Positions 2,181-64,000 of a DNA stretch of 64,000 bases are shown in pieces. The position numbers were made by a program, and so were the translations under genes. The DNA lies in NCBI GenBank assembly GCA_006384855.1, contig VCJN01001920.1, positions 1-64,000 on the forward strand. Direction: 5' to 3'. Each line of letters starts with the position of its first letter. Position 1 is the first letter of the stretch. Below the pieces are notes generated by a model. That model was not told the origin of the DNA, did no database searches, and saw nothing but the letters and a program-made list of their open reading frames with translations. Source of the DNA: Tetraselmis striata (Eukaryota; Chlorophyta; Chlorodendrophyceae; Chlorodendrales; Chlorodendraceae).

Positions 2181-2234
2181 GTGTCCCCCGACTTTCGTTT
2201 TCCACAGACATCCAGCAGCTCCTTGCAAATTTTC

Positions 2235-2714: not shown

Positions 2715-5700
2715 TCAGTGTCGGGAACTGAAAATGAGCTCCACGATTCGTTTCGATACCTCAAGGAAGAACTCCTGGGATAAAGGCGTATGTATGGCGC
2801 CCTGGATTGGCACAATCTCATGTGGCACATTGCAGTTGTTGCAGGCATCACCCCACACGGCTCGGAAGCGCTTCTCCACCTCATGCTCTGGCAAGTCGCC
2901 CGTCTCACCGGGTTGAGCCCCTTCATCCATGGCAGCCATCACGTCCCTTGTCCCAAACAGCAGCACCGTCGGTACCTCTGCCAGCCGCTGAGGTACACCT
3001 GCACGTACAGCGTCCTCAAAACAGGCGACTGTCACACGTACATCGTCCGCCTGGGCTAGCTGCATGCTTCGGGCAAGGTTACGGTCTCCGCTGGAGCCTA
3101 CGGCAACTATCTGGGCCTGAAGCCCCTTCATGAACGCGATCGGTGCGCCCCGTGACTCAATCTCCGCTGCACCGTAGGCCTTCACTAGTCTGGTCTCCAC
3201 CGCTGACACCCGCTCTGCTGTTTGTTCATATACCTCGTCTATTGTAAGCAGCTCATACACACCCTGTGCCACCTTGCCAGCGGTGTCGTCAGGAATGCAT
3301 TGTAGCCCCTCAGCGCAGCTCATCATGCGTTCAAATGCTGGGAGCTGCTTTGCCGGGAGGGCAATAACAGGGGAAGGGTTGAGAAGGAAGACAGCACTAG
3401 GCGGGAAGCCCAGCTCATGCGTGCGCCGAGCCAAGTGCTCTACACACATTGCTCCGTAGCTATGGCCAATGAGGAAGTATGGCTTCTCGTGTAGGCCTGC
3501 CGATGTGATGATGTCCTCCGTCATGTCAGCCAGTGTGGTCCAACTGGGCTCGTTTGCACGGGGCGGCCTACCGGGTGGCATGATGTCAAAGACCTCCACG
3601 GAGGGGGGAAGCAGCTGAGACATTTTAGCACCCAATTGCGAAGAGAACTGAGACTTTACCATCCCACCAGTACCATGGAAGCAGTAGAGGCGGTGAGTGG
3701 CCCCTGCATGTGTCACTTGTGCCGCCACAGCTGTCCGTGAGGAGGCTTGAACTATTGCGGTTAGCGGTGCCTCTGTTGCAACAGCTGGCTCTTGCCCCGA
3801 GGATAGGCTCTGGATATAAATAGCCAATGCTGAGATGCTGGGCTTGTCAAAGACTATGGTTGATGGAAGCTCTAGCCCGAAGTGCACGCCAAGGACATTG
3901 CGCACCTCAACTGATGCGAGGGAGTCAACGCCTGACTCGAGCAGGGACTCATCCACAGCTAGGTCATCGGTGCCTACGATACCGGCTACCAAACCTTTAA
4001 TGTCCATGACCACATCTTCAAGCAACCGTGTTTCTGTGCGGGGCGAGCCTTCGGTGCTTAGTGTCGAAACTTGGGCCGCGTCTGGAATGGGTGGATGGAT
4101 AGGCTCTAGGGCCTCCACTTCCGGAGCAAACGCGTCCTTGCCGTCAAATGTAAGCAAGATGGCTGGAAGGCTAGCCTTGTTGGCTTCAAGCCTACTCCAG
4201 CCAAGCGGAGACGCAAGCATAGTCGTTGTGGAGCGGCCGCGTACAACGTTGCATAAAGCTGCAAGCCCATGCGCAGGCCGAATGACGCCCGTCCCAGCAT
4301 TATGGTGCCCTTGTAGCATTGCGTCCATGCCCGCCGCCATGCCTGCACCAGCCCATGCACCCCACTGCATGCTGGACATCGGCACCCCAAGCTGCGCACT
4401 CTGCGCCACGTGCCAGTCCAGTGCTGCATTCGCCGCACCATAGGTGCTCTGAGAACCGAAACCAAGGAACGCTGAGATGGAGGAGAACAACGTGCCGGAT
4501 TCGAGTGCCATTCCTGCGAGCTGGTGGAGTAGCATGCGGGCGCCATTTACTTTCGGACCGGCCACTTGACGCAACCCAACAGTGGTCTGCTTTGGAAGCA
4601 TGGCATTTACTATGAGGCCGCCCGAGTGGACGATTGTCTTGCACATACTCCGCGCCGATGGTAGTAGATGTGCGGTGTCGGTCATTGCCGACACATCGCA
4701 CGCCACCGCCTCTATGCATGCTTTACTCAACATGCCATGCGGTGCCGCCCATGACTCTGTAGCCCCCCGCCCGGTGCGGCCCAACAACAAGCATGTCACG
4801 CCCGGCGCCGCACCCGCACTCCATATAGCCACCAAAGAGCCTATTCCGCCCAAACCGCCAGTCACCATCACCGTCTGCGCCGCTGACAAGCATGCCAGCG
4901 GAGGGCTCACACTCGCCGACATTGGACCCGCCGACTGCGTGAGTGCTGGGATCATGCATGTCCCAGCGGCAGTGTAGCTTCCGAACTCATCACCGAGTGG
5001 CGGTGTGGTGCTCAGTGGTTGCACGTCCGGGCTACACATGCCAACTCTCCAACTAGTCTCGGGGGCCTCAGAGGCGACGGTGCGCACCATGGCGTGCACT
5101 GCCTCGGCCAAGTGGGCGTTGTCGTTCGTGGGCGGGCGTCCAGGAAGGATACATGCGGAGGGTTTGAAGGTTGGCATGACGATGTGCGCGTTTGTACAAC
5201 GATCGCCAGGGCGAGCACCAACGGCATGCACCCCTTGCAACAGCCCGAGCTGCCGGTCTACCCGAGGTCGCATGATGGCGCTATGTGTATCCGACACTAA
5301 CGCAGGTTCGCTACCTCCGAGACTCCATGTCGGCACGGGGGTATTGCTATTGAGGTTGCCTTGCGGTGTCGGTGTTGTAGCATGCCCGGTCGATGATGCT
5401 TGCCACTGCGTGGAATACAACATATGGGGCGGTGGTGCAACGACACCGGGTACAGCACTCCGGATTTCTAGATTCTGATGTATTTGAGTTGTCAGGACGC
5501 TTTGGAGTTCCACACGTTGATGCGTTTTAGCGTGCAGCGCAAATGATGCCAATGCATTGGTGCATCTCCAAGTCCCACTCGCCCAAGTCGACGCAAGATT
5601 TGCGGGTGGGGTGGATGCGCTCGCATGATCATTGTTGCAATACGCATCAACACCGACCGCCATGCTCAAAGCTCTCCCATCGCCCTTGCATAGGGTGGCT

Positions 5701-8700
5701 TGCGGTCCCGACATGCGAATGACATCCGCTATCTGTGTGGCGGCATCGATTACTACTGGATGCGCCACATATTCCTCCGTGTCGACATTTGGCGAGTCGC
5801 GACCGATCGGATCTGCGACATCAGCAATGGCGTTCGTCTCTTCATGTGAAGGGATCGGGCTCAATCTAGACATGAACCCTTCCTCCGAGCTTTCCGTTGG
5901 AAGTGACCCGTGCGGAGTTGGAATTATGGCTGCCATGCCACGTGCATTAGTTGACCACTTGTCACCATGCACGATGTGTTGCATATTGGTGTTGGCGGTA
6001 CACACCTCGGTTGTTCCATGGGGTGTCAATCGAGCTTGGAATAGCGAGAAGCTGCCATCTCCAGGAATGGGCAGCGCCGCCGCAGCGAGAATCGCAATAT
6101 TTGTGACGGCCATTCCATTGGTGACACGTTTCCATGTAGCGTGGCCGGGCTCATTGGTACAAAGCGTCCCTACGCTAGCTAGCATGACTTCATACATAGC
6201 CGCGCAAGGTAGAATAGACCGGGCCATTACAACGTATTCAGCCAAATAAGAGCAACCCGCGGAGCTCAAGCGACCATGCAACACAGATGATTGCGCTGAG
6301 GTGTGCATTATGTTCACGCTAGTTATGAGCTTGTGGTGCATGTGCGACGAGTACACGTTCCGACGAGGTTGCCACGGCACTACTATGGCACTGCCATATC
6401 CCCTCGAAGTTTGTTCGTCGTTCAACCGAGATAGTAACGCGTGGGAGTTGGTGCCCATGTATGCGAAGCCGCTAAGTCCAACAACTGTCGTGTCAGTGCC
6501 ATTCCCAACTTGCGGACCCCTTTGCCGAGGCAAGAACGAAGCCATCCCTTTTCCCTCGAGCCCAGCCGCCACGTATGGATTTACATTAGCCAATCCAACG
6601 ATTGATTGCACCATACCTGAAGAAACCTCCGCCAATGCGTGGCAAAAGCTGACACTCCCCGCGGCCGCCTCTGCGTGCCCGCGTTGGGCCTTTGCAGCCA
6701 CCATACGCATCACAGATGCCGATACACGCTGTGCGGACACGACGCCGTGCAATGCTCCCACTTCGATGGGGTCTCCAAGAGGCGTGCCGGTACCATGCAA
6801 CTCGACGCCAGACACATGGTGAGCTGCGACCCCGGCAATAGACCACGCGCTTGCTACTACCGCTTGTTGGCTTGGGCCGTTAGGGGCCGTCAATGAGCTC
6901 GACCGCCCGTCTTGGTTCACTGCGCTGCCTAAATACAAGCCAGCGCACATGTGCGCTTGCCCGCTCACGCTAGCCGCTCCGCTACCCCCGCCTAGAGTCT
7001 TGCTAAGCCATGCCATTGAGCAAGCCTCTCCACGCCCGTAGCCGTCCGCCGTTGCATCAAGGGTCTTGCATCGCCCGTCCGCGCATAACATGCCCGCCAC
7101 CATCGTTGCTGCATACGTATTGGGTGAAAGCGTGAGGTTAACTCCTCCTGCGAGGCCGCATTGCTCACCGCTTGCCCTCATGTCCCTCACGGCCAAATGG
7201 GTTGCGACTAGCGCCGAAGAGCACGCCGTGTCTATGGCCACCGCTGCGCCGACAAGGCCAAAGAGATATGCGATACGCCCGGCGGCCACGCTCAGGTTGC
7301 CGCTGGTGGCGGTGTATGGGCTCAAGCTCAGTTGATGAGGGCTGGCAAGTTGGCTATACTCCATGGCTTGGATACCGACATACACGGGCCAACGCCGAGG
7401 CCCTTGCGTCAAGGCATGTTGCTCTGCTCTTGTTGCACATATCAAGGCTTCAGTGGCGTGCTCAAGCAACAACCGGTGTTGGGGATCCATCAAGTCCGCT
7501 TCTGATGAAGATATTCCAAAAGCCGCACCATCGAAGCACTCCACTCCGTCCAAGAAAGCACCAAACCGGGCCATCCGCGTATCTCCAAGCAACTGTTGTG
7601 CCTCCGCATCCCAACGATTGCCCGGAATCGGCCGCGCCGCTGCTCCCTCAGCCCATGCTGGTGACACCATCCGGGCCGAGGCCCATATGCTTGTAATAGC
7701 ATGTGACGAATCGTTGATGTGATTCTTATCGTGTTCCGACGTTCCAAGAGTTGATGACAAGCTGAGCTCTGGGGATGCCGCCATCGTGCGGTTGCCATTC
7801 CCGGCACGCTTGTTATACTCCTCCAACAAGAACGCAGATAGGGCGTCGAGTGTCGGGTGGTCAAAGATTGCAGTGGCGGGCATTGCTAGTCCGAGCCGGT
7901 TGCTTATAGTGTCGCGAAGTTCCATTGCCGCCAGTGAGTCCAAACCTGCTTCCATCAAAGGTTGATGAGGATCCACATCATTCCCTATTGCGAGAGAGAT
8001 AACGTCCGCGACCTCTTGTAGTATAGCCGCATGGTCCATGCTTGTGCCACCGTCATGGCCAATAGCCTCTTGCACTTCAAAATAGGATTGTTCCCATATG
8101 AACGTGGTAAGGCTGTCGAGAGTTGGATGGTCGAACAACGCGGTTGCGGGCATCTCCACACCTAATCTAGCACCGAGGGAGTCTCTTAGCTCTACCGCCG
8201 CCAAAGAGTCCACTCCGGCCTCTAGCAACGGTTGGTGCGCACTCACATCATCGCCAACTACAAGCGCAATGGCCTCAGAAATCTCCTGCGCTAGGGTTTC
8301 GCGGCTCATCTTTGCACTAGAGTGTACCTCCGCCGACCGTCGTTGGCCGTGAACGTGTATTGCAACTTGGGCCGCGTCTGGAATGGATGGATGGATAGGC
8401 TCTTGAGCCTCCTCGTGGGCCTCCGGAGCGAACATTTCCCTGCCGTCAAATGTAAGCAAGATGGCCGGAAGCCTAGCCTTGTTGGCTTCAAGCCTACTCC
8501 AGCCAAGCGGAGACGCAAGCATAGTCGTTGTGGAGCGGCCGCGCACGACGCTGCATAAAGCTGCAAGCCCATGCGCAGGCCGAATGACGCCCGTCCCAGC
8601 ATTGTGCTGGCCTTGTAGCATTGCGTCCATGCCCGCCGCCATGCCTGCACCAGCCCATGCACCCCACTGCATGCTGGACATCGGCACCCCAAGCTGCGCA

Positions 8701-11700
8701 CTCTGCGCCACGTGCCAGTCCAGTGCTGCATTCGCCGCACCATAGGTGCTCTGAGAACCGAAACCAAGGAACGCTGAGATGGAGGAGAACAACGTGCCGG
8801 ATTCGAGTGCCATTCCTGCGAGCTGGTGGAGTAGCATGCGGGCGCCATTTACTTTCGGACCGGCCACTTGACGCAACCCAACAGTGGTCTGCTTTGGAAG
8901 CATGGCGTACACGGAAAGGCCACCCGAGTGGACGATTGTCTTGCACATACTCCGCGCCGATGGTAGTAGATGTGCGGTGTCGGTCATTGCCGACACATCG
9001 CACGCCACCGCCTCTACGCATGCTTTACTCAACATGCCATGCGGTGCCGCCCATGACTCTGTAGCCCCCCGCCCGGTGCGGCCCAACAACAAGCATGTCA
9101 CGCCCGGCGCCGCACCCGCACTCCATATAGCCACCAAAGAGCCTATTCCGCCCAAACCGCCAGTCACCATCACCGTCTGCGCCGCTGACAAGCATGCAAG
9201 CGGAGGGCTCACACTCGCCGACATTGGACCCGCCGACTGCGTGAGTGCTGGGATCATGCATGTCCCAGCGGCAGTGTAGCTTCCGAACTCATCACCGAGT
9301 GGCGGTGTGGTGCTCAGTGGTTGCATGTCCGGGCTACACATGCCAACTCTCCAACTAGTCTCGGGGGCCTCAGAGGCGACGGTGCGCACCATGGCGTGCA
9401 CTGCCTCGGCCAAGTGGGCGTTGTCGTTCGTGGGCGGGCGTCCAGGAAGGATACATGCGGAGGGTTTGAAGGTTGGCATGACGATGTGCGCGTTTGTACA
9501 ACGATCGCCAGGGCGAGCACCAACGGCATGCACCCCTTGCAACAGCCCGAGCTGCCGGTCTACCCGAGGTCGCATGATGGCGCTATGTGTATCCGACACT
9601 AGCGCGGGTTCGCTACCTCCGAGACTCCATGTCGGCACGCGGGTATTGCTATTGAGGTTGCCTTGTGGTGTCGGTGTTGTAGCATGCCCGGTCGACGATG
9701 CTTGCCACTGCGTGGAATACAACATATGGGGCGGTGGTGCGGTGTCACCAACCATTTCTTGCCTTGCGTGCGGGTGAATCGTGCGTGCGATGCAAGCGCT
9801 AGTGATCAATGTTGTGACCTCACCGGAGGCCGTGATAATGGAGGCGCAACCCGAGCCTCTGGCCACCGCGTGACCGTTGCATTGGTTTTGATCAAGGTCG
9901 TTTGATGCCATCGTGTCTGTGAGCTTACATGCTTCAATGTTTGTTACCTGACCCTTAAAACGTAGGTGAGAGGCTGCGAGCAATGTTACCTCCGTATGAG
10001 CGGCGTTGCGTGTATTTGCTTGTAAGCTGCAAACCATCACACCATCATGTGTACGTTGTGGGTTGCGTTTTGTCAAAAGCATGGGTTTTTGTTTACCAAA
10101 GTCGCCCAACGGACTTCGCTGTATTTTTAGCTTGGCAAGGGCCAGTGTGCATGACATCAGCTTGCTAGGCTCCCCGGTTTGGGACTCGAGCCGCTCCACC
10201 GTCATGCTTCTTGCACGAGCATTTGCGTCGACTTGGATATGGGCAGAACCAACGAGGGGTGCGCCCCTATATAACACAATTTCGGAGATAATAATTGGAC
10301 ACGGTGTCGTTGCGGCAATAAGCAAGCCGCCAACCTTACCGGAGGCTTCCAAAACTGCCCCCGGCGCAAGGACAGGTTGTCCGTGCAAAGCAAAGCCGGC
10401 CAGGTGGCCAAACTGGATATGACGAAGACTGCCAACCATTTTGATTTCCGTTGATGAGATGACCTTGAGGGGCGCCCAAACGCGATCTACGTTGGGGTAG
10501 GGCCACAACCATGATCGTTGCCAATCGGGCGAGTCGATGGATGGAAGTGGCGCCACGCATCGTGATACGGAGGGCCCTATTAGGCAGTGAGCATTGACCC
10601 CGCTCATGCCAAAGGAGCTCGTGCCTCCGGCCGTAGAAGCAAACCCATCACGACCATGGTTTGCAAATACCGCACCTGTACCGGCTTGCCTACCAACAAC
10701 AGGGAGGACACCCTGCTTGCGCCACTCGCGATCCCACGTACCTTCCACATGCGGATTGATTGTTCGCATGTGCATTACGCCCGCCGCAATGCGATGTTGC
10801 ATTGCCATGGCAGCTAACAACACCCCCGTAAGGCCTGCGGCGCCTTCCGTGTGGCCGTAGCATGACTTTACGGACCCGATACCCAATGTGTGGATGTTAG
10901 TACCGTTGCCACGGGCCGGTGCAACCGCTTGCCCAAGGGCACCCATCTCAATTGGGTCGCCTAGCGGAGTTCCCGTGCCATGTACAGCCATGTAGGCTAG
11001 CTGCACAGGCGCTAGGCCGGCAATGGAAAGAGCCGCGCCCACAAGACGCGTTTGTGAGGGTCCATTCGGTGCTGTGAGTCCACTAGAGCGGCCATCTTGA
11101 TTCAGCGCCGAGCCACATAGTAACAACGCGCCGTCCATTGCCCTGGACTTTGCAATTTCTGTAAGCATCATGGCTACCATCGCCTCGCCACGACCGTACC
11201 CATCCGCGGTATCATCAAAGGACTTACAGCGACCGACAGGTGAGAGAGCTTGCAACGCGCATATTGCCACAGTAGTGGTGGGCATCAGCATGGTGTTGAC
11301 ACCAGCCGCGAGACCTGCCGTTGTCTCGTTTGCTATCAATCCGGTGTGCGCAAGGTGCGCAGCGACGAGCGAGGAGGAGCACGCTGTATCTGTACTAACG
11401 CAAGGGCCTTGGAAGCCAAACAAGTATGACAAGCGGCCCACGAGATAGGGTAGCCCACTCCCAAGGATAGATGTTGGTGTGAACTGCGCGGAACTATACA
11501 TATCCATGTACTCCTGGTACATGCAACCCACGTAGACGCCAGTGGCAATTGCCATGGTTGACGTCCAACTTTCATTTTGCGCGCCCGAGCTCGCGGAATA
11601 CGCTAGTTCCAACAGAACACGTGCTTGTGGGTCCACCCCCCGAGCTTCCTCTTCGGCCATGCCAAATCCGCTTGCGTCAAAGGACTCCAAACCGTCCACA

Positions 11701-53700: not shown

Positions 53701-56700
53701 TGTGCCGTCGCGTGCATTGCAAATGATGTCAATGCATCGATATTGCTCCAAGTCCCGCTTGCCCAAGTCGACTCAAGTGGGTTTGTGGACGGCCTAGATG
53801 CCCTCGCACAATCACTACTGCAATATACATCGACACCAACCGGAATGCTCAAACCTCGTCCCTCGCTGCCGCCCCACGTGCCGGGTCCCGAGATCTTGCA
53901 CATCAGAACGACCTTTATGTGAGTGACGGCGTCAACGACTGCCGGATGCGCTACATACTCCTCCATGGTTGGCGAGCCACCACCCATCGCATCTGCGACA
54001 TGAGCCATGGCATTTGTCTCACCATGTGAAGAGAGCAGCCTCAAACCCGACATAAACCCTTCATCAAAGCTTTCCGTTAGAATAGTGTCTTTCTGAGTCG
54101 GTATTGTAGTTCCCATGCCACGTGCATGAGTGGACCACTTCCTTCTATGCGCAGTGTGTTGAGTAGCGGCACCAGCTGTACACACTTCGATTGTTCCATG
54201 GGATGTCAATCGAGCTTGGATGAGCGAGAAGCTACCGTTTCCAGGGTTGGGCAATACCGCGGCAGCGAGGATCGCAATATGTGTGACGGCCATTCCATTG
54301 GTGGCCCCTTTCCATGTGGCGTGGCCGAGCTCATTGGCACGAAGTGTCCCTAGGCTCGCTAGCATCACCTCATACATGGCCGCGCCCGGGATGATAGAGC
54401 GGCCCATCACTACATGCTCCGTCAAATAAGAGCAACCCGCGGAGCTCAAGCGACCTTGCAAAATAGAAGATGAAGACGGCGCGTCGACGATGCTCACGCC
54501 AATCATGAGCTTGTGGTGCATGTGCGGCGAGTACACGTTCCGACGAGGTTGCCACGGCACCGACATGGATGCACCGAACCCATGTGAGGTTTGGTTATCA
54601 TTCAACCGGGACAGTAACGCGTGGGAGTTGGTGCCCATATATGCGAAGCCGCTAAGCCCAACCACTGCCATGTCGTCACCATCATTCCCAACTTGCGGAC
54701 CCCTTTGCCGAGGCAAGAAAGAAGTCATCCCTTTTCCTTCAAGCCCCGCCGCCACGTATGGATTCACGGTAGCCAACCCAATGATCGGCTGCACCGTACC
54801 CGAGGAGACCTCCGCCAATGCGTGACACAAGCCGACACTCCCCGCGGCCGCCTCTGCGTGCCCGCGCTGTGCCTTGGCAGCCACCATATGCATCAAAGAT
54901 GGCAATCCACGCTCCGCGGACACGACGCCGTGCAATGCTCCCACTTCGATGGGGTCTCCAAGAGGCGTGCCGGTACCATGCAACTCGACGCCGCATACTT
55001 GGTGAGCTGCAACCCCGGCCGTGGACCACGCGCTTGCTACCACCGCTTGTTGGCTTGGGCCGTTAGGGGCCGTCAATGAGCTCGACCGCCCGTCTTGGTT
55101 CACCGAGCTCCCTACATATAAGCCCGCGCACATGTGCGCTTGCCCGCTCACGGTAGGCACTTCGCTCCCGCCGCCACCGCCTTGAGTGGTGCTAAGCCAT
55201 ACCATTGAGCACGCCTCTCCGCGCCCGTAGCCGTCCGCCGCGGCATCCAAGGTCTTGCATAGCCCATCCGCGCACAACATGCCAGCCACCATCGTGGCTA
55301 GATATGTCTTTGGTGACAGCGTGAGGTTGACTCCTCCTGCAAGGCCGCATTGCTCGCCGCTTGCCCTCATGTCTCTAACGGCCAAATGAGTCGCCACTAG
55401 CGCTGAGGAGCACGCTGTGTCTATGGCCACCGCTGCCCCGACAAGACCAAAGAGATATGCGATACGCCCGGCGGCCACGCTAAGGTTTCCGCTGGTGGCG
55501 GTGTATGGGCTAAGACTCGCTTGATGAGGACCGGCCAGTTGGCCATACTCCATGGCTTGGATACCGACATACACGGGCCAACGCCTAGCCCCCTGCGGCA
55601 ACGCGGTATGCTCGGTGCCCGTGGCACATGTCAAGGCTTCGGTGGCGTGCTCAAGCAACAACCGGTGTTGGGGATCCATCAAGTCTGCTTCCGATGACGA
55701 GATTCCAAAAGCCGCGGCATCAAAGCACTCCACTCCGTCCAAGAAAGCACCGAACCGGGCCACCCGCGTATCCCCAAGTGATTCTTGTGCCTCAACATCC
55801 CAACGATTGCCCGGAATCGGCCGCGCCGCTGCTCCCTCAGCCCATGCCGGTGACACCATCCGGGCCGACACCCATATACTCGTGGATGCACGAGAGCGCG
55901 CGGTGGCGATGTCTTTGTCGTGATTCCAAGCCGCCCGTGCTGCGGAGGTGCGCCCTAAGGATGCCATCATCGTGGGGTTGATGCCGTTCCCGGGGCGCTT
56001 GTTGTACTCCTCCCACAAGAACGTAGAAAGGGTGTCGAGTGTAGGGTGGTCAAACATCGCGGTGGCCGGCATTGCCACTCCCAACCGGTTGCTAATGTTG
56101 TCGCGAAGCTCCACGGCGGCCAGCGAGTCCACACCCGCCTCCAACAAAGGGTGATGAGGATCCACGTCATCCCCCACTACCAAAGCGACCGCCTCCCCGA
56201 CCTCTTGTAGTATAGCCGCGTGGTCCATTCTTGTGCCACTTGCATGGTGGGAATCCTCTTTGTCCGCGGACGCACATTGTTGCCACAAGAATGTGGTAAG
56301 GCTGTCGAGAGTCGGGTGGTCGAATAGCGCGGTTGCGGGCATCTCAAGTCCTAGTCTAGAACCAAGGGAGTCCCTTAGCTCCACCGCCGCTAAAGAGTCA
56401 ACCCCGGCCTCCAATAGCGGTTGGTGAGCACCCACGTCATCGCCTACCACGAGCGCGATGGCCTCGGAGATCTCACGCGCTAGGGTTTCACGGCTTGTTG
56501 CTTCGACCCGCGAGGGCTCACGTCGCAAATCATGGTTGTGATTGTTTGTGACGTATGCGATTGAATTTGTGCGGGCGCATGGCGTGCTCGCATTTGTCCG
56601 CGATATCAATCCCTCGACTTTGTGTCCTCTTAGCAAGCCTGGGACTTGGGCGGAGTTCACATGCAACTTGCTCCATTGCAACGGACTTGCCAACACAGTG

Positions 56701-59700
56701 GCAATATTATCACCGGAGCCCCACGATATGACCGCGTGCAGGGCACCTAGGCCTTGCTTGGGGTCGATCAAGCCATATCCAATGGCGTTGATGTTTTGCA
56801 AGACCTTGTCACGAGACGCCGCCATACCGGCCCCGGCCCACGCCCCCCATTGCACACTTGACAAAGTAATGCCCATATTGGCGGCACGACTCGCCCATCC
56901 GTCTAACATAGAGTTTGCAGCGGTGTAGTTCGCTTGCCCCTTGGACCCTAACAAGCCGGCGATTGAGGAGAACGCCACCGTACTCAGCGTCGGAAATGCC
57001 TTGGTGAAGCTCCATAAGTGGTGCATTCCGGTCACCTTGACTCCCCCCGTGTAGCTAAGCCCTCTCGCAGTTTGTCGTGACAACGCTCCATCTTGTAGCG
57101 CCCCTCCGGAGTGGAAAACATGACCCCATGTGCGAAGGTTGATCACGTGACGCGCATCCTCTGAGACCGACGAGTCACACGAGCTCGCGTCCATGCATGC
57201 GCCTTTTGATAAATGAGCCATAGCATCGTGAGATGCTCGCCCGGTGCGCCCCAATAACATGCCCTTGAGACCGGATACTTCCGTTCTCATCCATCCCGCA
57301 ACAAGCATACCAAGCCCTCCGAGGCCGCCAGTCACGAGAGCACTTGCACCCCATGCCCTCGCCCCGCTTGACACGGGCGCCATGTCGATAATCCGCTTGG
57401 TGGACCGCGCTAGCACGGGAGCAACAACAGTACCTCCGGTAATGCTCGTGCCGAAGCAATCTCCCTTGGAAGGTAGCGCCGAATCGTGGTCGACAGCGAG
57501 CGACGTGTACCTTACGTCCCATGCAACATTGGGAATCTCCGTCGCACATGTTCGTGCCATGCTGTGCACGCCTTGTTTAGCACTCATGGCCAAGGCTCTT
57601 TCGTTGTCCACGGCACGACATGGAGAAACCAACCCATATCCCACCTCTAGAAACGCCAACCGCACTGCGCCCGTCTTGTTGATGTTTAGAGTCATGGCAT
57701 GCTGCAAGCTTTGCAACACCGCCAATTGTCCGTCAACACGACCCGCCTCTTGGACACGTTGCAAGGCGGGGATAGCCGACTCAACGCTTGCTGTCGCCAC
57801 ACCCGCGTCATCGACACCCATGTTCAACAACGAGGTGGCTTTAGCCCCGAGCAAATGCCCAGTGGATGTGGCGATGGTCACGCGCTTGCTCGAGGCAACC
57901 GCGCCATCAACTTGCCATTGAGTGTTGTACAACATTTGAGCCATCTCGTGTTGAGATCTCTTGCGTGCCGACAACATGGAAGTCGCGCGAGCCGCTCGTA
58001 TCGGTTTTAGCGTTATCCCTTTAATCGTTAAAATCTTATCTTTTGTTGCAGATTCGATCATCGAGCTACCCGTGATATGCATGCCACCGTGTAAAGTCGC
58101 GTTTTGGCAGCATATTTGATGTTCGGTCGCTTTTGTTGAGTCTTCGGGCGGTGTGCCCACATTGCAGATGTCCATGCAAGTGGCCATCCTTGTGACAATG
58201 GTCATCGATGGATCCCTTCCCCGCGTCAAAGTGCCCATGGTATTGAGACTTTGGATGCACGAATCTACAATAATCGCACCGCTGACGATCATGTTGTTGG
58301 TGTCAAATCGTTTCTTGTATGCAAAGCTTATAGTACCAGTAACAAATGATTCGTACGCATGATATTGAAGGGGTAGCAAGCATTGTCCGCGCATATGGTC
58401 ATGTACACGCTTATCATCGGTGGTAGCCTGTGATGGCAATGATTTCGACATGCCCGTAACGTTGGCGCTCATCATTGTTGTCTCGCCGTATGTGCGGGTC
58501 TCCACTATTGGCAATGCTACCACCGCGAAAGAACCGGTATGGATGTCCGCACGAATTTGTAGTGACCGTACAATAGGCAAAATCTCGCTGACTTGGATGT
58601 TACACAAATGAGATGTTGCATGTCCATGAGTTGCTTTTGTATTGTCTTTGGTCATCAACATGGCCGCTTGGCAAGCCACATGAATGGTTATCGATTGCGG
58701 GAAATGGGGAATGCCATCAATTGTGTTCCCATAAAGAGGCGATACTTTCGTGCGGTGCAAATCGAGCCCAATGTAGGCAATGTTACGTCCATATCCATAG
58801 TTCAGAGTTGACCAAGCTTCCGATCGGGGAGGAAACGGCCATACAACATGTCGATTCCTTGCTTTGTCCTCAAAGATCGCTACAATGGTCGCATCCGTGC
58901 CGGTTATTGATGTGGGCGCACAAGGATTCTTATTCAGAGAGAAGCAACTATGGGCGTTCACCCCGCTCATGCCAAAGGAGCTTGTCCCCGTGTACCCGCT
59001 CCACCTTATCGTCGCCCCGGCCCCCACTTGCCGTTGCACCACAGGCATCACACCTCTTCTCTTCCAATCCCGTTCCCATGTGCCCTCCACATGCGGATTC
59101 ACCTCGCGCAAATGCATCACCCCGGGCGCAACTTCATGTTGCATGGCCATAGTGGACAACAATGCACCGGTAAGGCCCGCCGCCCCCTCGGTGTGACCGT
59201 AGAATGACTTCACAGAGCCCACACACAAGTTGTGAAGTGTGGACGCTTCAATGCGCTCGTAAGCAAGCGCTTGACCAAGGGCCCCCATCTCGATCGGGTC
59301 ACCCAATGGGGTTCCCGTGCCATGAACAGCGACGTAGCACAACTTGGCGGGGTCGAGGCGTCCGGACACCAATGCGTCACCCACCAAGCGCGTTTGAGAA
59401 GGCCCGTTGGGCGCGGTTAGGCCGCTAGACCGGCCGTCTTGGTTTACTGCCGACCCACACATCAACACACAATGGTCACCCTCACCGCGATGATGTTGAT
59501 ATCCGCTTGTCAAAAGCGTCGCCACCAAGCCTTCGCCCCGGCCATACCCGTCTGCATTGTTGTCGAATGACTTGCAACGCCCCACAGGAGATAATGCTTG
59601 CAATACACAAATTGCCGTAGTTGTCTCCGGGAGAAGCATGGTGTTGACTCCCGCTGCCACCGCGGCCATAGTCTCCCCGGATGTCAACCCGTTGTGTGCG

Positions 59701-62700
59701 AGATGGGTTGCCACCAACGACGAGGAGCACGCAGTGTCGGTGCTTACGCATGGGCCTTGCAAACCAAATGTGTACGACACCCGGCCGACAAGAAATGATA
59801 TTCCGTTACCCAAAAGAAGTCCCGGAGTGAGCCGCTCATGTTCCTTTAATTTAATGTACTCTTGATACATGCAACCCACATACACTCCTGTATGCCTCAA
59901 TGTCGCATGCATATCAACGCCCATATCGTGATGATCCAATATAGCTAACGCTCCGTGGGTGAGCTCGAGTAATACACGCGCTTGCGGATCCATGCCGTGA
60001 CTTTCGTCTTGCGACAATTGGAACGACTCGTGATCGAATAACTCCAACCCATCCACAAAGCCGCCCACCATCACATAGCTGCCTTGCTTGGAGGATCCTT
60101 GCGGTTGGTAGTACTCGTCCGCGTCCCACCTAGCCAACGGGATGCGCGCTTGTACATCTTGTTGCAATCGCACACACTGCTCGAGCATGCTACTCTCCAC
60201 ATTGGCATCGAGTGGGCTCTTCGGATATCTGCACACCAATGATGCCAATGTTGAGCACGTACTCCATATGTTCGCCACTTGGGCGTCCTCCAACACGGGC
60301 TCCGGCGGCAACATATCAACATCATCGTGTTGGGAGGGGAGCTGCCCAACTAGAAAGGTAGTCAATGCGGAGATGGAGGGGTAGTCGAATGTGACCGTGG
60401 CAGACAAGGCCATTCCGTATTGTGCTTCCAACCTAGAGCGTAGCTCGGTGGAGCCAATCGAGTCTAGTCCGCTCTCCATGAGAGGGGCATTCTCGTCGAT
60501 AGCATTGCCGATGACTTGATGCACTATGCTTGTCACCTCCTCTAGCACCTCTTGCACGTGCTTCGACGGTGCGGCGTTAATGGAGGTAGGATGCAAGGAA
60601 CGGGGCATGCTTGACAACCCTCTTGGCCACGGCGATGTTGAGAAATTGGCTGTTGGCTCGCCTACATCGTGCATTTGGATGGCCGCCATAGACTCGATGT
60701 AGTCGACGAGGGCATGCACCGAAGGGTAATCGAACACCACCGTGGCGGGCAGCTCGGTGTCTAGTTGGGCCGACAGTTTGGTGCGTAGTTCCACAGCGGC
60801 AAGACTATCGAGTCCTGCCTCCATGAGGGACCCATTGGGATCAATGTCGTGACCGAGGATATCAGCCACGGCGGATGGGATGATGCGCTTGGCATCACTC
60901 GAAGCGACTTGGAGCCGGCTCGGGGCCATGGGCGTAGATTCAAGTGGAAAAGAGGTAGGCATGGACTCGAGATACAAAATGAGGGCTGACATAGAGGGGT
61001 AGTCGAACACCATTGTGGCGGGCAACTCGGTGTCTAGTTGGGATGACAAGCTTGTGCGTAGTTCAACGGCGGAAAGGCTATCGAGGCCGGAGTCCATGAG
61101 GGAAGCGTTGGGGTCGATATCTTGGCCAAGAATAGCAAACACAGTTGATGAGACAATCCGATTGTAGTTAGTGACCTGGACTATGGGTATGGTACTTATA
61201 CTCTCCGATTTGATATACCGGTCGGTAGCAAACATGCCACGTGCGTGATGATGGCTTTTACTTGCATGCGCAGTGTGATGCGGCCTTGCATCGAAAAATT
61301 CCTTGAATATTGAGGTGTTATTTTCGTTTTTCTCGCCGCTATTTTCCGAAGCTCGTGTGATTGACAATATTGATAGTGTTTTCTTCAAGCGTGTTGTAGA
61401 TAAGGGTGAAGAGAGCCACACATCCGATTGGCACATTTGGGTTCCTTTTCCCGCGGCGATCACCCCTCCAAGCGCTTGCAAACCCAGTGTCGGTAAAACC
61501 ACGCCAAGTCCGGCTTCATCAACATTTGCAATAATCGATGCATGCCTCGCAGCCATGCCCACGGCGGTCCATGCACCCCATTGCACACTCGCACCGTGAA
61601 GACCACACGATGTGCGGTTGGTCGCCCACCAATCCAACATTGCGTTGGCGATCCCGTAGTTTGCTTGGCCACGCGATCCCATGAATGATGTGATGGACGA
61701 GAACGCCACCGCGCTTTCCACCAACCACCCCGCCATGTTGCTTTCCATCAATCGCGCTCCCGACACCTTAGGGGCCATCACTTGTCTAAGGGCCGTCGAG
61801 GATTGATTGGAAAGCGCGCTATCTTGCAACACCCCGCCGGAGTGCACCACGCTGCAAGACCCGTGGCATCCGTGCACCACCATCCGGTTCATCAATTCCT
61901 CACTTGATGCTAGGTCGCAACTTGTGGCCTCAACCGCGGCGCATCTCTCCGCCCATGCGGTGCCTAGGTCCGCCGCCGCACCACTGGCACGTCCGCTGCG
62001 ACCCAACAACGTCACATGCCCCCCCTTGCCTATCATGGACAACCAATCTGACACCAACAAGCCCAACCCTCCGAGGCCGCCCGTCACAAGTATGGCCCCT
62101 CCAATATCGACAGCGTTGCCGCCTCGGCAGTCGTATGCAAGGTGGTACCTTGTGGTAGAGGCTCCTATTTGGGGAGTCAGCACCACGCCATTCTTGAGGT
62201 GGCACCCAAAGCCATCGGAGTGTACTTCGCCACGCGCGGCGTGTTGGGACACGCCACATGTGCTCATGCGGTATACACGCCACGTAGCGTCCGGAACCTC
62301 TTGAACGGCGGTGCGCACCATGCCATGCACTCCCGCCGCAATCTCGTTCATATGACGGTGAGCTCCCCGAGGGGCTGAGACATTATGCCCCACTCGCTCC
62401 TCGTTGGTCGCCATGACTAACCGGACATCGCAACGCTGTCCGCGCGGAATGCTAGCGTGCAAGTGTTGAGCAAGAGCTAACGGGCCATCGTTTCGGGCGT
62501 TGCTAACACTGCATGGCAAGCACGTGCCGACCGTCGCCTCACCGTGTTGGCCAAACTCCCATCCGATGAATGCCTTAGCGGTGACGATCGTCGGTGCTTG
62601 CGAGTAGTGTCCCGACGCCATCCATGAGGTTTGGTACAATAGTGGCAAGCGGGACGACGGTGTCGTTGCTTTGGGTTGTTGGCTGACTTGCTTTAGTTGC

Positions 62701-64000
62701 AAATCATGCAACGCGCACGCGCTCCCGCCGCCGCCATCGGCGGACAAGGCACGTTGGATGGTGAATGTGGGGATTTTGCCATCTTGTGTAAGGTTGTGGC
62801 TCACCCACAGCTCCGCCGACATGGAGATATCGCTTGTAGTGAAGGTTTGGACGCCGATGGGGATGTACGTGCTATTGCCCTCGCCAGCCGTTGGTGAGAC
62901 GGTGGTGCTACCAATATGCATGGCCGCATCTATGGAAGCGGGCGCTTGATTATTGTCAAGCGGAGACTTGGTAGATCCGGCCAAGGATGCGATTGGTCTT
63001 GTGATTGCGGGCGTGCGAGATAGCTCCGTAGTAAGCATCGCGCTACGTGACGTTGAGCCATGAAGAGCTGCAACACCGTTGACTTGTGGGGTGAAGCCGA
63101 TGGTCGTGATGATGTCGCATGTCATGTGTTTAGTTAGGCGATTGTGCATCGATGATGATGGTGCGATACTAGACCTCGATGAGGCGACTGATACCCGCGC
63201 AACTCGGGGATCGAAAGATACCATGAGCATGTAGGCACTAGGTTGGCGGCCGCCATCGGTGTTAAGCATGGCGGGCTCAAGCACGAGTGCGGCAAGAATG
63301 TTGACTGATCGTAGTCCGAGAGGCGTGGATGAATGTTGTCCAGAGCCATAAAACAACGCCGCGGCCTTGTGGGCGACTTCGAACATGGCTGCGCCGGGGA
63401 GGAGTGGCCGGCCTTGTACACTATGATGCAATAGATAGACGGCTTTGGGGTCATTCAAAGCTCCCTTCATTTCAACAACACTCGTTGGGTGGAAAATGGC
63501 ATGCTTCAACAACGGTGTAGCCGATTCTATCGGCCAATGCCGAGAGCGATGCCAATACGTCTCGCAGGAAATTGGCATTATGCCATCGCGTCTCCCGTCA
63601 TCAACTAATACGCAATGCGCGTTGACTCCACTAATGCCAAACGAGCTCGTGCCGGACGCTATCGATGGAATGTCGTCCCTCTCACCATCCCGTACAATAG
63701 CTCCCGTGCCCGTTTGCCTTTGAACCGATGGCATCAATCCGCCCTTCCTCCAATCTCGATCCCATGTGCCTTCCACATGCGGGTTTATGTTTCTCAAATG
63801 CATCACCCCCGGTGCAATCCGATACTTCAATGCCAGCGACGCCAACAATACACCTGTCAAACCCGCCGCACCTTCCGTGTGGCCGTAGCATGACTTCACG
63901 GATCCCACTCCTAGAATGCCATGTCTTGATTCACCACGGCTTGACGGTGCCGATGCTTGGCCAAGGGCTCCCATCTCGATGGGGTCGCCTAGGGGCGTGC
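2715..64000 (-). CDS. giant AT-less multimodular type I polyketide synthase (N-terminus beyond window)
   Basis: One megasynthase with 13 modules and a C-terminal thioesterase builds a polyketide by successive decarboxylative condensations. Coding reaches the right edge, so the start codon is not visible. The stop is TGA at 2715-2717. At least 20,426 residues are encoded once the three one-base insertions at 26362-26363, 28389-28391 and 28413-28414 are allowed for; without that, the frame splits into 28329-63974, 26302-28368 and 2715-26339. The first and last pieces share a frame. Domain count: 13 KS (first partial), 13 DH or DH-like, 13 KR, 3 ER, 31 ACP, 1 TE. No AT is found: KS ends run into DH after a short linker carrying a W-P element, so malonyl loading must come from another protein. 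No intron is seen. The closest described relatives in kind are giant PKSs of chlorophyte algae; the product cannot be named. Confidence 0.9.
2718..3745 (-). other. thioesterase domain (chain release) of the PKS
   Basis: The C-terminal domain is an alpha/beta-hydrolase thioesterase that would release the finished chain by hydrolysis or cyclisation. It starts near the motif RLYCFHGTGG. The nucleophile elbow GHSYG is at 3453-3467, a likely catalytic aspartate sits in FGTRDVM, and a likely catalytic histidine in GAIHTPLS near the end. The order Ser-Asp-His is canonical. It follows the only single ACP in the protein. Whether it makes a free acid or a lactone cannot be read from sequence. Confidence 0.85.
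3790..7700 (-). other. PKS module M13 (terminal): KS-DH(inactive)-KR-ACP
   Basis: KS about 6420-7690 has active cysteine in DTACSSA (codon 7221-7223), HGTGTPLGDP and RGHAEAAAG, so the Cys-His-His triad is complete. It is the SIW-type KS that follows two-ACP modules. The DH region, about 5475-6330, has lost the first active site: the expected histidine is tyrosine (YVVMARSILP, codon 6234-6236) and the following glycine is alanine, although a distal DxxxQ (DAATQ) remains. KR about 4180-5440 has VTGGLGGIG and SSIS...TYGAAN. It lacks the acidic residue usually seen after HSGG. A single ACP (about 3800-4030, GVDSL, Ser codon 3921-3923) feeds the thioesterase. Expected last unit: beta-hydroxy acyl. 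Confidence 0.85.
4068..5438 (-). repeat. 1.37 kb KR cassette shared by M13 and M12 (copy at 8364-9740)
   Basis: The KRs of M13 and M12 are nearly the same from APPPHMLYSTQW to LLTFDG, with an offset of 4,302 bases. Similarity ends abruptly: at 5438/9740 the DH sides differ, and near 4068/8364 the ACP sides differ. The break points fall at the edges of the KR. Confidence 0.9.
7800..11905 (-). other. PKS module M12: KS-DH(inactive)-KR-ACP-ACP
   Basis: KS about 10575-11905 opens with VCRYP and has DTACSSS (Cys codon 11379-11381), HGTGTPLGDP and YGHTEGAAG. The DH-like region, about 9745-10555, lacks HxxxGxxxxP: the aligned stretch reads FALHGQPVLAPG with no histidine at the catalytic place, and I find no clear DxxxQ or DxxxH. 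KR about 8470-9740 is nearly identical to that of M13 but ends upstream of different ACPs; its NADPH motif is VTGGLGGIG and its Ser-Tyr-Asn set is intact. Two ACPs, about 8080-8315 (GVDSLAA) and 7800-8045 (GLDSLAA), each keep the phosphopantetheine serine. Expected unit: beta-hydroxy. Confidence 0.85.
12000..16270 (-). other. PKS module M11: KS-DH-KR-ACP-ACP, divergent single-copy module
   Basis: KS about 14970-16265 has DTACSSA (Cys codon 15777-15779), HGTGTPLGDP and RGHAEAAAA, a divergent member of the SIW-type group. DH about 14040-14960 keeps HNVLGRAIVP and distal DAATH, so it looks active. KR about 12710-14010 has the variant motif ITGGLTGVG and keeps SSLAS...NYSATN. Two ACPs lie at about 12310-12545 (GLDSLGAVDL) and 12000-12240 (GLDSLGATEL). 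No other part of the window is a close copy of this KS, DH or KR, unlike most other modules. Expected unit: alkene. Confidence 0.85.
16335..20540 (-). other. PKS module M10: KS-DH(inactive)-chimeric KR-ACP-ACP
   Basis: KS about 19180-20540 opens with VAGLYPG and has DTACSSS (Cys codon 19992-19994), HGTGTPLGDP and YGHTEGAAG. The DH-like region, about 18245-19130, reads NNINDQPLFP where HxxxGxxxxP is expected (histidine replaced by asparagine, codon 18987-18989). KR about 16965-18230 is a hybrid: 17454-18060 is almost the same as the M12/M13 KRs, while the C-terminal half is unlike any other copy and carries HASGVTKD, FSSVAA and NYAAAN. Two ACPs, about 16590-16825 (GVDSLAAIEL) and 16335-16560 (GLDSLAMIGL), are divergent. 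Expected unit: beta-hydroxy. Confidence 0.85.
17454..18060 (-). repeat. 0.6 kb KR tract in M10 matching M12 and M13
   Basis: This tract matches 8937-9543 (offset 8,517) and 4635-5241 with few differences. Both ends are sharp and lie inside the KR, so half of the M10 KR has been replaced or shared. Confidence 0.88.
19110..24330 (-). repeat. 5.2 kb block DH-KR-ER-ACP3-KS (M9/M10), copy of 24870-30080
   Basis: The DH, KR, ER and ACPs of M9 plus the KS of M10 match the DH to ACPs of M8 plus the KS of M9 at an offset of 5,751 to 5,763 bases. The N-terminal part of the DH (24330-24870) is less alike, so the unit begins inside DH. Confidence 0.88.
20645..26300 (-). other. PKS module M9: KS-DH-KR-ER-ACP-ACP-ACP
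   Basis: KS about 24925-26300 (VAGLYPG type, Cys codon 25743-25745) has the full triad. DH about 24000-24880 keeps the histidine in HVVQDRSLLP, but the motif glycine is aspartate; the distal DAAMH is present. KR about 22715-23985 has VTGGLGGLG, HSGGLLQD and NYGIAN. ER about 21635-22625 has GLNFRDVLNVLGEYPG, the NADPH loop HAAAGGVGIAAIQYAK and LNSLSGDF, and comes after KR. Three ACPs lie at about 21300-21530 (GVDSLGS), 20975-21180 (GMDSLGS) and 20645-20875 (GVDSLAS). Expected unit: fully reduced methylene. Confidence 0.88.
26362..26363 (-). other. one-base insertion (extra G) breaking the PKS frame, site 3
   Basis: The copies at 20601 onward and 41173 onward read gtgcgccg where this one reads gtgcggccg. 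The extra base lies in the linker between the last ACP of M8 and the KS of M9. It returns the frame to that used before 28414. Confidence 0.85.
28389..28391 (-). other. one-base insertion (extra G) breaking the PKS frame, site 2
   Basis: The plus strand reads gacgggatcg here, against gacggatcg in the M5 and M9 copies. It is 24 bases from site 1, so only about eight residues between the two sites are misread before the second shift. Confidence 0.85.
28413..28414 (-). other. one-base insertion (extra G) breaking the PKS frame, site 1
   Basis: The plus strand reads tacaggagac here, against tacagagac in the M9 copy and tacggagac in M5. In the direction of translation this is the first of three insertions, at the KR-ER junction of M8. 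Confidence 0.85.
32090..36775 (-). other. PKS module M7: KS-DH-KR-ACP-ACP-ACP
   Basis: KS about 35480-36770 is the SIW type with DTACSSA (Cys codon 36300-36302), HGTGTPLGDP and RGHAEAAAG. DH about 34525-35405 keeps HVVMGRSIIP (His codon 35304-35306) and DAVTH. KR about 33180-34500 has VSGGLGGIG, with serine where most copies have threonine, HCGGVLKD, FSSLAA and NYGAAN. A longer linker leads to three ACPs at about 32710-32930 (GLDSLAA), 32440-32660 (GLDSLAA) and 32090-32320 (GLDSIGS). It is a near copy of M4. Expected unit: alkene. Confidence 0.87.
34600..38720 (-). repeat. 4.1 kb block KR-ACP2-KS-DH (M6/M7), copy of 53710-57830
   Basis: The KR and ACPs of M6 with the KS and most of the DH of M7 match M2/M3 at a constant offset of 19,110 bases. 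The M4 copy fits the same series: 19,110 equals 14,814 plus the 4,296 offset between M3 and M4. Confidence 0.88.
36885..41115 (-). other. PKS module M6: KS-DH(inactive)-KR-ACP-ACP
   Basis: KS about 39745-41115 is the VAGLYPG type with DTACSSS (Cys codon 40569-40571) and both histidine motifs. The DH-like region, about 38825-39700, reads NSIDNQPLFP at the expected HxxxGxxxxP and has no clear distal acidic motif, so it should not dehydrate; it resembles the M10 region. KR about 37520-38815 has VTGGLGGLG, HSGGALQD and NYTAAN. Two ACPs lie at about 37160-37390 and 36885-37115, both GVDSLAAVEL. Expected unit: beta-hydroxy. Confidence 0.86.
41220..46820 (-). other. PKS module M5: KS-DH-KR-ER-ACP-ACP-ACP
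   Basis: KS about 45480-46820 (VCRYP type, Cys codon 46293-46295) has the full triad. DH about 44580-45450 has HVVQDRSLLP, with glycine replaced by aspartate, and DAAMH. KR about 43290-44560 and ER about 42210-43200 follow in that order; the ER has NFRDVLNVLGEYPG and HAAAGGVGIAA. Three ACPs occupy about 41870-42100, 41550-41755 and 41220-41450 (GVDSLGS, GMDSLGS, GVDSLAS). This copy is the in-frame counterpart of the broken M8. Expected unit: fully reduced. Confidence 0.88.
46905..51590 (-). other. PKS module M4: KS-DH-KR-ACP-ACP-ACP
   Basis: KS about 50295-51585 is the SIW type with DTACSSA (Cys codon 51114-51116). DH about 49340-50220 keeps HVVMGRSILP and DAVTH. KR about 47990-49310 has VSGGLGGIG, HCGGVLKD and NYGAAN. 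Three ACPs lie at about 47520-47750 (GLDSLATVEL), 47250-47475 (GLDSLAA) and 46905-47130 (GLDSIGS). It matches M7 almost base for base; the few differences include GLDSLAT against GLDSLAA in the first ACP and LPNQ against LLNQ in the KR. Expected unit: alkene. Confidence 0.87.
49430..52190 (-). repeat. 2.7 kb block ACP2-KS-DH (M3/M4), copy of 53730-56490
   Basis: The ACP pair of M3 and the KS and DH of M4 match those of M2 and M3 at an offset of 4,296 bases. The KR of M3 between the two copies is different, so the unit is ACP-KS-DH. Confidence 0.88.
51695..55885 (-). other. PKS module M3: KS-DH-KR-ACP-ACP
   Basis: KS about 54590-55880 is the SIW type with DTACSSA (Cys codon 55410-55412), nearly identical to M4. 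DH about 53640-54520 keeps HVVMGRSIIP and DAVTH. KR about 52340-53610 has the variant VTGGTGGIG, FSSISA and TYGAAN, and HSGGIIVN without the acidic residue, so it belongs with the M12/M13 KRs but is more diverged. Two ACPs lie at about 51975-52200 and 51700-51930, both GVDSLAAVEL. Expected unit: alkene. Confidence 0.87.
55985..60255 (-). other. PKS module M2: KS-DH(inactive)-KR-ACP-ACP
   Basis: KS about 58935-60250 is the VCRYP type with DTACSSS (Cys codon 59727-59729) and a full triad. The DH-like region, about 58010-58850, reads NTIDGIPHFP, so the catalytic histidine is asparagine although the glycine and proline remain; a possible distal DSCIQ is present. KR about 56630-57960 has VTGGLGGLG, HSGGALQD and NYTAAN. 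Two ACPs lie at about 56275-56500 and 55990-56235, both GVDSLAAVEL. Expected unit: beta-hydroxy. Confidence 0.86.
60340..64000 (-). other. PKS module M1 (KS truncated by window): KS'-DH-KR-ACP-ACP-ACP
   Basis: Only the C-terminal third of the KS is in the window (about 63590-64000). It shows GTPLGDPIEMG, YGHTEGAAG and GISGVNAHC; the active cysteine is outside. It resembles the VAGLYPG-type KSs of M6, M9 and M10. DH about 62690-63560 keeps the full HSVQGRPLLP and DAAMH. KR about 61400-62665 has VTGGLGGLG, HSGGVLQD and NYGIAN; no ER follows, unlike its relatives M5, M8 and M9. Three ACPs lie at about 60955-61175, 60685-60905 and 60340-60570 (GLDSLSA, GLDSLAA, GLDSIGS). Expected unit: alkene. 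Confidence 0.85.

Follow-up and report, generated by a model that had tools for sequence, protein, structure and literature searches.

The window analysed here, bases 1-64,000 of contig C1549 (132,887 bases; genome assembly of 224 Mb in 2903 contigs), carries on its minus strand part of a giant algal polyketide synthase (PKS) gene. The gene is real, very large and of a known kind, and its record of duplication is clear. The reading that we favour, and consider likely, is that of a nuclear gene of a probably green alga, encoding a giant, non-iterative PKS of type I which receives its AT activity in trans and was built by block duplication. The size of the terminal exon and the pattern of the KSs are the most interesting features of this gene.

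Extent of the gene and evidence for a nuclear origin

Open-frame analysis placed the PKS gene on the minus strand, with stop codon TGA at 2715. Three overlapping open frames were found on this strand: 2718-26384 (7889 codons), 26305-28536 (744 codons) and 28332-77759 (16,476 codons). The middle stretch is open in a different frame from the two long stretches that flank it. The gene's frame has 60 stops within the window and none inside its two long open stretches, as compared with 722 and 909 stops in the other two minus-strand frames; the long open frame is thus not due to chance. Open frames, domain matches and an acceptor site read by eye define the window part of the terminal coding exon (2715..64000, minus strand). 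On the contig, the exon extends from 2715 to about 77,738, or about 75,024 bp with the acceptor placed by eye. Its coding length is 75,021 bases, or about 25,007 codon lengths with the frame breaks included, and the three open pieces, which overlap slightly, have masses of 1.74, 0.08 and 0.83 MDa. Internal repeat pairs showed dN/dS ratios below 1 (0.19-0.67 in 16 of 16 pairs; the pairs overlap mutually, and the least diverged ones have few changes). No significant avoidance of premature poly(A) signals was observed: sense TGTAA occurred 16 times, where synonymous shuffles gave a mean of 22.6 (z -1.5; rank 305 among 1024 pentamers), and it therefore lends no indirect support to one long transcript.

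An earlier note on the window had described, without naming a strand, an intronless megasynthase gene with more than 61 kb of coding sequence, continuing past the window and ranking among the largest polypeptides. The size was borne out, and the gene is larger still, with about 25,000 codons in the terminal exon; the frame runs on to about 77.74 kb, outside the window. Pfam domain matches support the identification as a megasynthase. The absence of introns holds for the terminal exon and not for the 5′ part outside the window, in which introns are present. The predicted protein does rank among the largest, but is not a record: PKZILLA-1, at about 45,000 aa, and titin are larger than this PKS. 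The gene does exceed the largest plant protein given in the accessible part of one survey, a 22,244-aa Volvox PKS (PMC6681478).

The overall layout of the gene is a few short exons followed by the giant terminal exon. The 5′ part spans about 77.7-82.4 kb, with a possible start codon near 82.41 kb. An ACP was found near 80.9 kb (motif and NCBIfam match). Behind it lies a split KS, with pieces near 80.4-80.1, 79.9-79.7, 79.6-79.4 and 79.35-79.24 kb (profile matches and reading by eye), which resumes after a CAG acceptor at 77.74 kb. Of the introns that split this KS, the first and the last have GT-AG borders as judged by eye. The three exon-sized frames scanned before the first ACP gave no Pfam match at 0.01, AMP-binding included. 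Short repeats of the CCAGTA type occur in the last intron before the giant exon (contig 78.0-78.65 kb), which has the look of a repetitive insertion.

A metallocarboxypeptidase-like gene at 1..2200 on the plus strand (PF00246, Peptidase_M14, E 1.6e-15) is convergent with the PKS gene and stands outside the PKS system. Upstream of the PKS gene, a satellite-like tandem repeat of ~41 kb (contig about 92,000-132,887) extends to the contig end, with periods near 538 and 929 bp; at least 28 other contigs have matches to a 600-base piece of this repeat.

Sequence evidence points to a nuclear gene: introns are present in its own 5′ part, and its KSs group with those of an intron-bearing locus on contig C1771 and apart from 16 bacterial ones. 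A bacterial PKS contig in an algal assembly would account for the bacterial look of a 75-kb open frame, and bacterial-like contigs do occur here (the C1804 KS; long uninterrupted AMP-ligase frames). This explanation is nevertheless highly improbable and already contradicted by the introns of the same gene, by the KS grouping and by the recurrence of the contig's satellite on at least 28 other contigs. On C1804 (30,001-40,000), a KS that groups with bacterial KSs lies close to a long uninterrupted AMP-ligase frame, and the assembly therefore probably holds bacterial contigs. A partial 18S rRNA fragment was also observed on C911 (about 86,200-86,820), flanked by a GTPase-like gene that by eye appears to contain introns. 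The fragment has a chlorophyte look and, together with a PKS1-like gene on C1771, hints at a green-algal host.

Module architecture and frame breaks

The three PKS frames were cut into 33 fragments, and 32 of these were scanned against Pfam at 1e-5 (the last two at 0.01); the remaining one, of 130 aa, is covered by its neighbours. The gene encodes 15 KSs, 15 KRs, six ERs in five modules, 41 ACPs and one C-terminal thioesterase. Several KS-to-ACP modules follow one another in one frame, which is broken within module 10; this is the arrangement of a non-iterative modular type I PKS. The catalytic Cys-His-His (motifs DTACSS and HGTGT, and the second His) is kept in every one of the 14 KSs aligned; these are the complete KSs of the exon, of which 12 lie in the window, and the alignment left out the fifteenth, which is split by introns. 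The Ser and Tyr positions of the KR are kept in all 15 copies. The exon contains 40 ACPs, all with the DS serine, and one further ACP lies upstream. This count was obtained with a profile built from 16 ACPs, which returned 42 rows, two of them partial double hits. Modules 1-15 have 5, 4, 3, 2, 2, 3, 3, 2, 3, 3, 3, 2, 2, 2 and 1 ACPs, respectively; tandem ACPs (2-5) are thus present in 14 of 15 modules.

ER domains were found in modules 1 (two copies), 2, 7, 10 and 11. The three of these in the window, modules 7 (41106..46829), 10 (26280..32018, containing all three extra bases) and 11 (20529..26279), have the same content of KS, DH, KR, ER and three ACPs; these and all following coordinates refer to the minus strand. 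KS, DH and KR without ER are present in modules 5 (51651..55946, followed downstream by a KS of a discordant clade), 6 (46830..51650) and 9 (32019..36836), and module 13 (11916..16313) has KS, KR and a DH-type HxxxGxxxxP region without a Pfam DH match at 1e-5. Modules 4 (55947..60263), 8 (36837..41105), 12 (16314..20528) and 14 (7758..11915) each have KS, KR and a DH-like region without the catalytic His. Module 15 (2715..7757) has the same content, with Tyr in place of the His, and ends in the thioesterase. The window part of module 3 (60264..64000) contains DH, KR and three ACPs, and its KS, at about 63.6-64.95 kb, crosses the window end. The thioesterase domain and stop occupy 2715..3770 (PF00975, E 2.3e-10; GHSYG at 3467), where the chain would be released; its nearest relatives in PDB are RifR and other thioesterases. 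In module 1 (contig 71,600-75,100), the ER is tandem-duplicated with copies 98.9% identical, and four ACPs nearly identical in protein are followed by a fifth, diverged ACP.

The Pfam DH model was matched at 1e-5 in modules 1, 2, 3, 5, 6, 7, 9, 10 and 11 and not in modules 4, 8, 12, 13 and 14; module 15 gave a weak match (2e-4) below the cut-off. The catalytic His is present in ten modules, module 13 included, and replaced in modules 4, 8, 12, 14 and 15. The full HxxxGxxxxP motif was found in modules 2, 3, 5, 6, 9 and 13, and its Gly is replaced in modules 1, 7, 10 and 11. An AlphaFold model of the DH-like region of module 12 was uninformative (mean pLDDT 34). Because of this low pLDDT, the missing Pfam matches and the Gly replacements, the predicted reduction pattern is uncertain.

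The sequence was analysed as assembled, with the extra bases left in. The earlier note had proposed three one-base insertions, and comparison with the two most similar copies within the gene confirmed them, near 28.4 kb (two bases) and near 26.4 kb (one base). The DNA alignment of 26.2-28.7 kb with these copies (99.2% and 98.3% identical) showed three single extra bases, all of which fall in module 10. The overlaps of the open frames place one reading-frame change, with one extra base, at 26305..26384 and the other, with two, at 28332..28536. Introns were rejected as the cause of the frame changes; the alignments to the two copies need single extra bases only.

Errors of assembly or a recent lesion are the most probable origin of the three extra bases. 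They add up to one full codon, and the frame is open on either side. Frame switches without a gap were also found on other PKS contigs of the assembly: on C2210 in an ER (near 6.1 kb) and in a KS (near 15.7 kb), and on C1099 in an ER (near 11.5 kb). These suggest residual assembly indels in such genes, although the genes may instead be decayed. The assembled frame meets a stop at 28,329; one chain reaching the thioesterase therefore requires that the frame breaks be errors, and a single polypeptide across them is a prediction from the sequence.

If the extra bases were real, translation would end in module 10 after ~16,500 residues, and the last five modules and the thioesterase would be dead or separately transcribed. 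We judge such a shortened or split product unlikely, though worth weighing. The stop at 28,329 is what it predicts, and nothing else marks the stretch as bad sequence: the extra bases lie outside homopolymers (longest run within 8 bases, 3), private substitutions around the breaks show no general excess (8 in 2.5 kb, 5 of them in one cluster), and a search of the assembly with 26.2-28.7 kb found no second allele. Against it stand the sum to a full codon with open frame on both sides and the gapless switches on C2210 and C1099, which may belong to pseudogenes. In addition, parts of modules 11, 12, 14 and 15 have dN/dS below 1 relative to their copies, the KS and KR residues are intact in modules 11-15, and the only thioesterase found sits at the far end.

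Internal duplications and KS clades

The PKS gene is a mosaic of its own copies. We found 24 internal matches over 400 bp, including repeats of 12.5 kb at 98.1%, 6.5 kb at 93.6% and 5.7 kb at 96.9% identity. The largest block (39680..52200, minus strand) stretches from the module 5 ACPs to shortly past the module 8 KS, and its second copy lies at 24854..37386 on the same strand. A further copy (19103..24754, minus strand) is 96.9% identical to the block directly upstream (24,854-30,517; DH-KR-ER-ACPs-next KS). Divergence is far higher in the first 500 bp of this copy than in the remainder.

Block ends were compared with domain borders using 17 of the 24 matches; two repeats of others, three module-1 ER/ACP matches and two short ones were omitted. 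Among 27 distinct 5′ ends, 15 are no more than 39 bp away from the start of an ACP; among 28 distinct 3′ ends, nine are no more than 98 bp away from the end of a KS (six just behind, three just inside). A circular-shift test with a 150-bp window, for which we placed the KS end 268 residues behind the active-site motif, gave p = 0.0075 for 5′ ends at ACP starts and p = 0.0047 for 3′ ends at KS ends, values that are optimistic because many ends derive from the same ancestral junction (some are 1-3 bp apart). The KS end is not the sole preferred border, since ten of the 28 3′ ends lie about 0.9 kb behind it, near the DH-KR border; five lie about 2.1 kb behind it, near the KR end. The gene probably grew by repeated duplication of blocks ending at domain borders, the ACP start and the KS end among them, as judged from these repeats.

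Near-identical blocks of 5.7-12.5 kb at 97-98% identity could be multiplied or misjoined by an assembler, and the number of modules would then be partly an artefact. We regard this as improbable. The copies have private substitutions along their length (three copies over 5.7 kb) and codon changes with dN/dS below 1, and are therefore not one molecule assembled twice; moreover, no other contig has a near-identical copy of 26.2-28.7 kb.

The KS tree comprised 48 sequences. This gene contributed 14 and six further contigs 18 (among the nine from C1771, seven were pieced together from exons), and 16 were taken from the 80 bacterial ones fetched. The 14 KSs of the gene fall into three clades, with starred branches at 98/92, 100/96 and 100/100. 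The first clade (five KSs) directly follows exactly the five ER modules. The second (four KSs) follows modules 3, 6, 9 and 13, in which the DH His is kept and ER is absent. The third (five KSs) follows modules 4, 8, 12 and 14, with a DH-like region that has lost its His, and module 5, with the His kept. KS clade thus agrees with the predicted chemistry of the preceding module in 13 of 14 cases, module 5 being the one exception. The observed three changes were reached in 1 of 2000 label shuffles with 14 rows, and in 53 of 2000 with seven hand-picked deeper lineages and the discordant row left out. A duplicated block carries a KS along with the module upstream of it, so that the clade of the one is not independent of the type of the other; the pattern shows first of all that the KS travels with the preceding module. 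From the clade pattern, the KSs probably act as gatekeepers that select their substrate by the product of the preceding module.

The third, hydroxyl-type clade groups with the C1771 KSs, and the first two clades stand together on a separate long branch. The gene's KSs are about 36-42% identical to those of the 80 bacterial loci fetched. In the tree they branch apart from the 16 bacterial KSs, which are not a trans-AT reference set. A search of PDB with the KS profile gave 25 sequences at 1e-90 or better, which we take to be a mixture of cis-AT and trans-AT bacterial enzymes. The top entry, with a much higher score, is a chain of 1690 residues that presumably holds two KSs, and its score is taken as no sign of closer kinship.

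Probable AT in trans, predicted product and comparison with known systems

No AT match (PF00698) was found in the 32 PKS fragments scanned (1e-5; last two 0.01; 5′ exons scanned in part), nor on C1549 in a whole-genome search. An integrated AT is thus absent from the fragments scanned, as in a functional trans-AT PKS. The whole genome gave five PF00698 matches versus 55 KS family matches; the searches work exon by exon, so that pieces of a domain may count separately, and both numbers are lower bounds. Two adjacent AT matches on C1134 and one on C1721 exceeded the cut-off and two fell below it; these are candidates for the trans-AT. At about 22,700-30,700 of C1134, two AT domains lie side by side and are followed by a KS frame on the same strand. 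This frame also matches an ACP, weakly, and after it the families of cobalamin-independent methionine synthase and of FAD oxidoreductase; the combination is unusual and may include the trans-AT.

Other large PKS loci are present in the genome. The C1771 locus has an AMP-ligase fragment, ACPs and nine KSs (seven split), and its last two modules gave no KR profile match. According to the accessible text of work on chlorophytes, these algae share a PKS that has 10-11 modules, of which the final two are unreduced, and an adenylation domain; in Chlamydomonas it is linked to the zygote wall (PMC7073580, PMC12633428). Judged by its domains, the C1771 locus fits this conserved PKS1 form. The window's gene, with KR in all of its 15 modules and no AMP-binding match in the three 5′ exon frames scanned, does not behave as a CrePKS1 orthologue and is by the same standard a different, second kind of large PKS. 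C2210, C157 and C1099 form a third group of PKS loci.

On the favoured reading, the N-terminal segment and ACP outside the window would take the starter acyl group, and stand-alone AT proteins would charge the ACPs with malonyl units. Each of the 15 modules would add two carbons and reduce the keto group. As predicted from domain content, modules 1, 2, 7, 10 and 11 would leave saturated carbons, modules 3, 5, 6, 9 and 13 double bonds, and modules 4, 8, 12, 14 and 15 hydroxyls. The C-terminal thioesterase would release a chain of about 30 backbone carbons plus the starter; the product would be a long, partly hydroxylated carbon chain. Tandem ACPs probably raise throughput. Such a product could possibly be a precursor of structural lipid or wall polymer, or a defensive polyol-polyene. 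The terminal exon would have grown to 75 kb because the modules that were copied are free of introns.

Three features make this gene useful for further study. The blocks of 97-98% identity record recent copying, and their ends can be read closely. They permit a test, in an algal lineage, of the view drawn from bacterial work that modules evolve as units which end with the next KS. A coding exon of 75 kb with a frame of ~25,000 codons is a hard test for algal transcription, splicing and translation. A literature search on the longest exons in green algae and on tandem ACPs in algae gave nothing directly comparable, which is weak evidence of absence.

The comparisons below follow the parts of each source that were accessible. 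Bacterial trans-AT PKSs, as described for transPACT (PMC7930024), share with the predicted enzyme the supply of AT in trans, and have the same match between KS clade and upstream product, with recombination behind the KS; the blocks of this gene differ in that some end at the DH-KR border or behind the KR. This likeness may be a case of convergence. A broader proposal is that KS gatekeeping tuned to the preceding module, together with an exchange block that runs from ACP to KS, has an origin independent of bacterial trans-AT PKSs, and that intron-free copying gave what is possibly the longest eukaryotic coding exon; we put this forward tentatively, as somewhat less probable than its opposite.

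Long type I megasynthase genes are known from other eukaryotes. Cryptosporidium CpFAS1 (25 kb, intronless) and CpPKS1 (40 kb) have three and seven modules and release by a reductase, whereas this gene has a thioesterase (PMC2995488, PMC6568194). PKZILLA-1 and -2 of Prymnesium parvum (PMC12300183) are likewise giant modular algal PKSs; they differ in having 56 modules over two proteins, a haptophyte host and a polyether product. For haptophyte PKSs, the analysis in PMC7073580 describes an N-terminal AT.

The closest known systems are the chlorophyte trans-AT type I PKSs CrePKS1, VcaPKS1 and their relatives (Shelest 2015, PMC4661987; O'Neill 2020, PMC7073580). They share with this gene the MDa size, the multimodular organisation, the absence of an integrated AT and the duplication of modules. 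This gene has 15 KSs, as compared with 10-11 in the conserved chlorophyte form and 14 in one O. lucimarinus PKS. Chlorophyte PKS1 has an N-terminal adenylation/ligase domain, whereas none was found in the three 5′ exon frames scanned here; the PKS1 form ends in two unreduced modules, whereas this gene has KR in every module. Relative to chlorophyte PKS1, this gene is distinguished by tandem ACPs in 14 of 15 modules and by a terminal exon of 75 kb.
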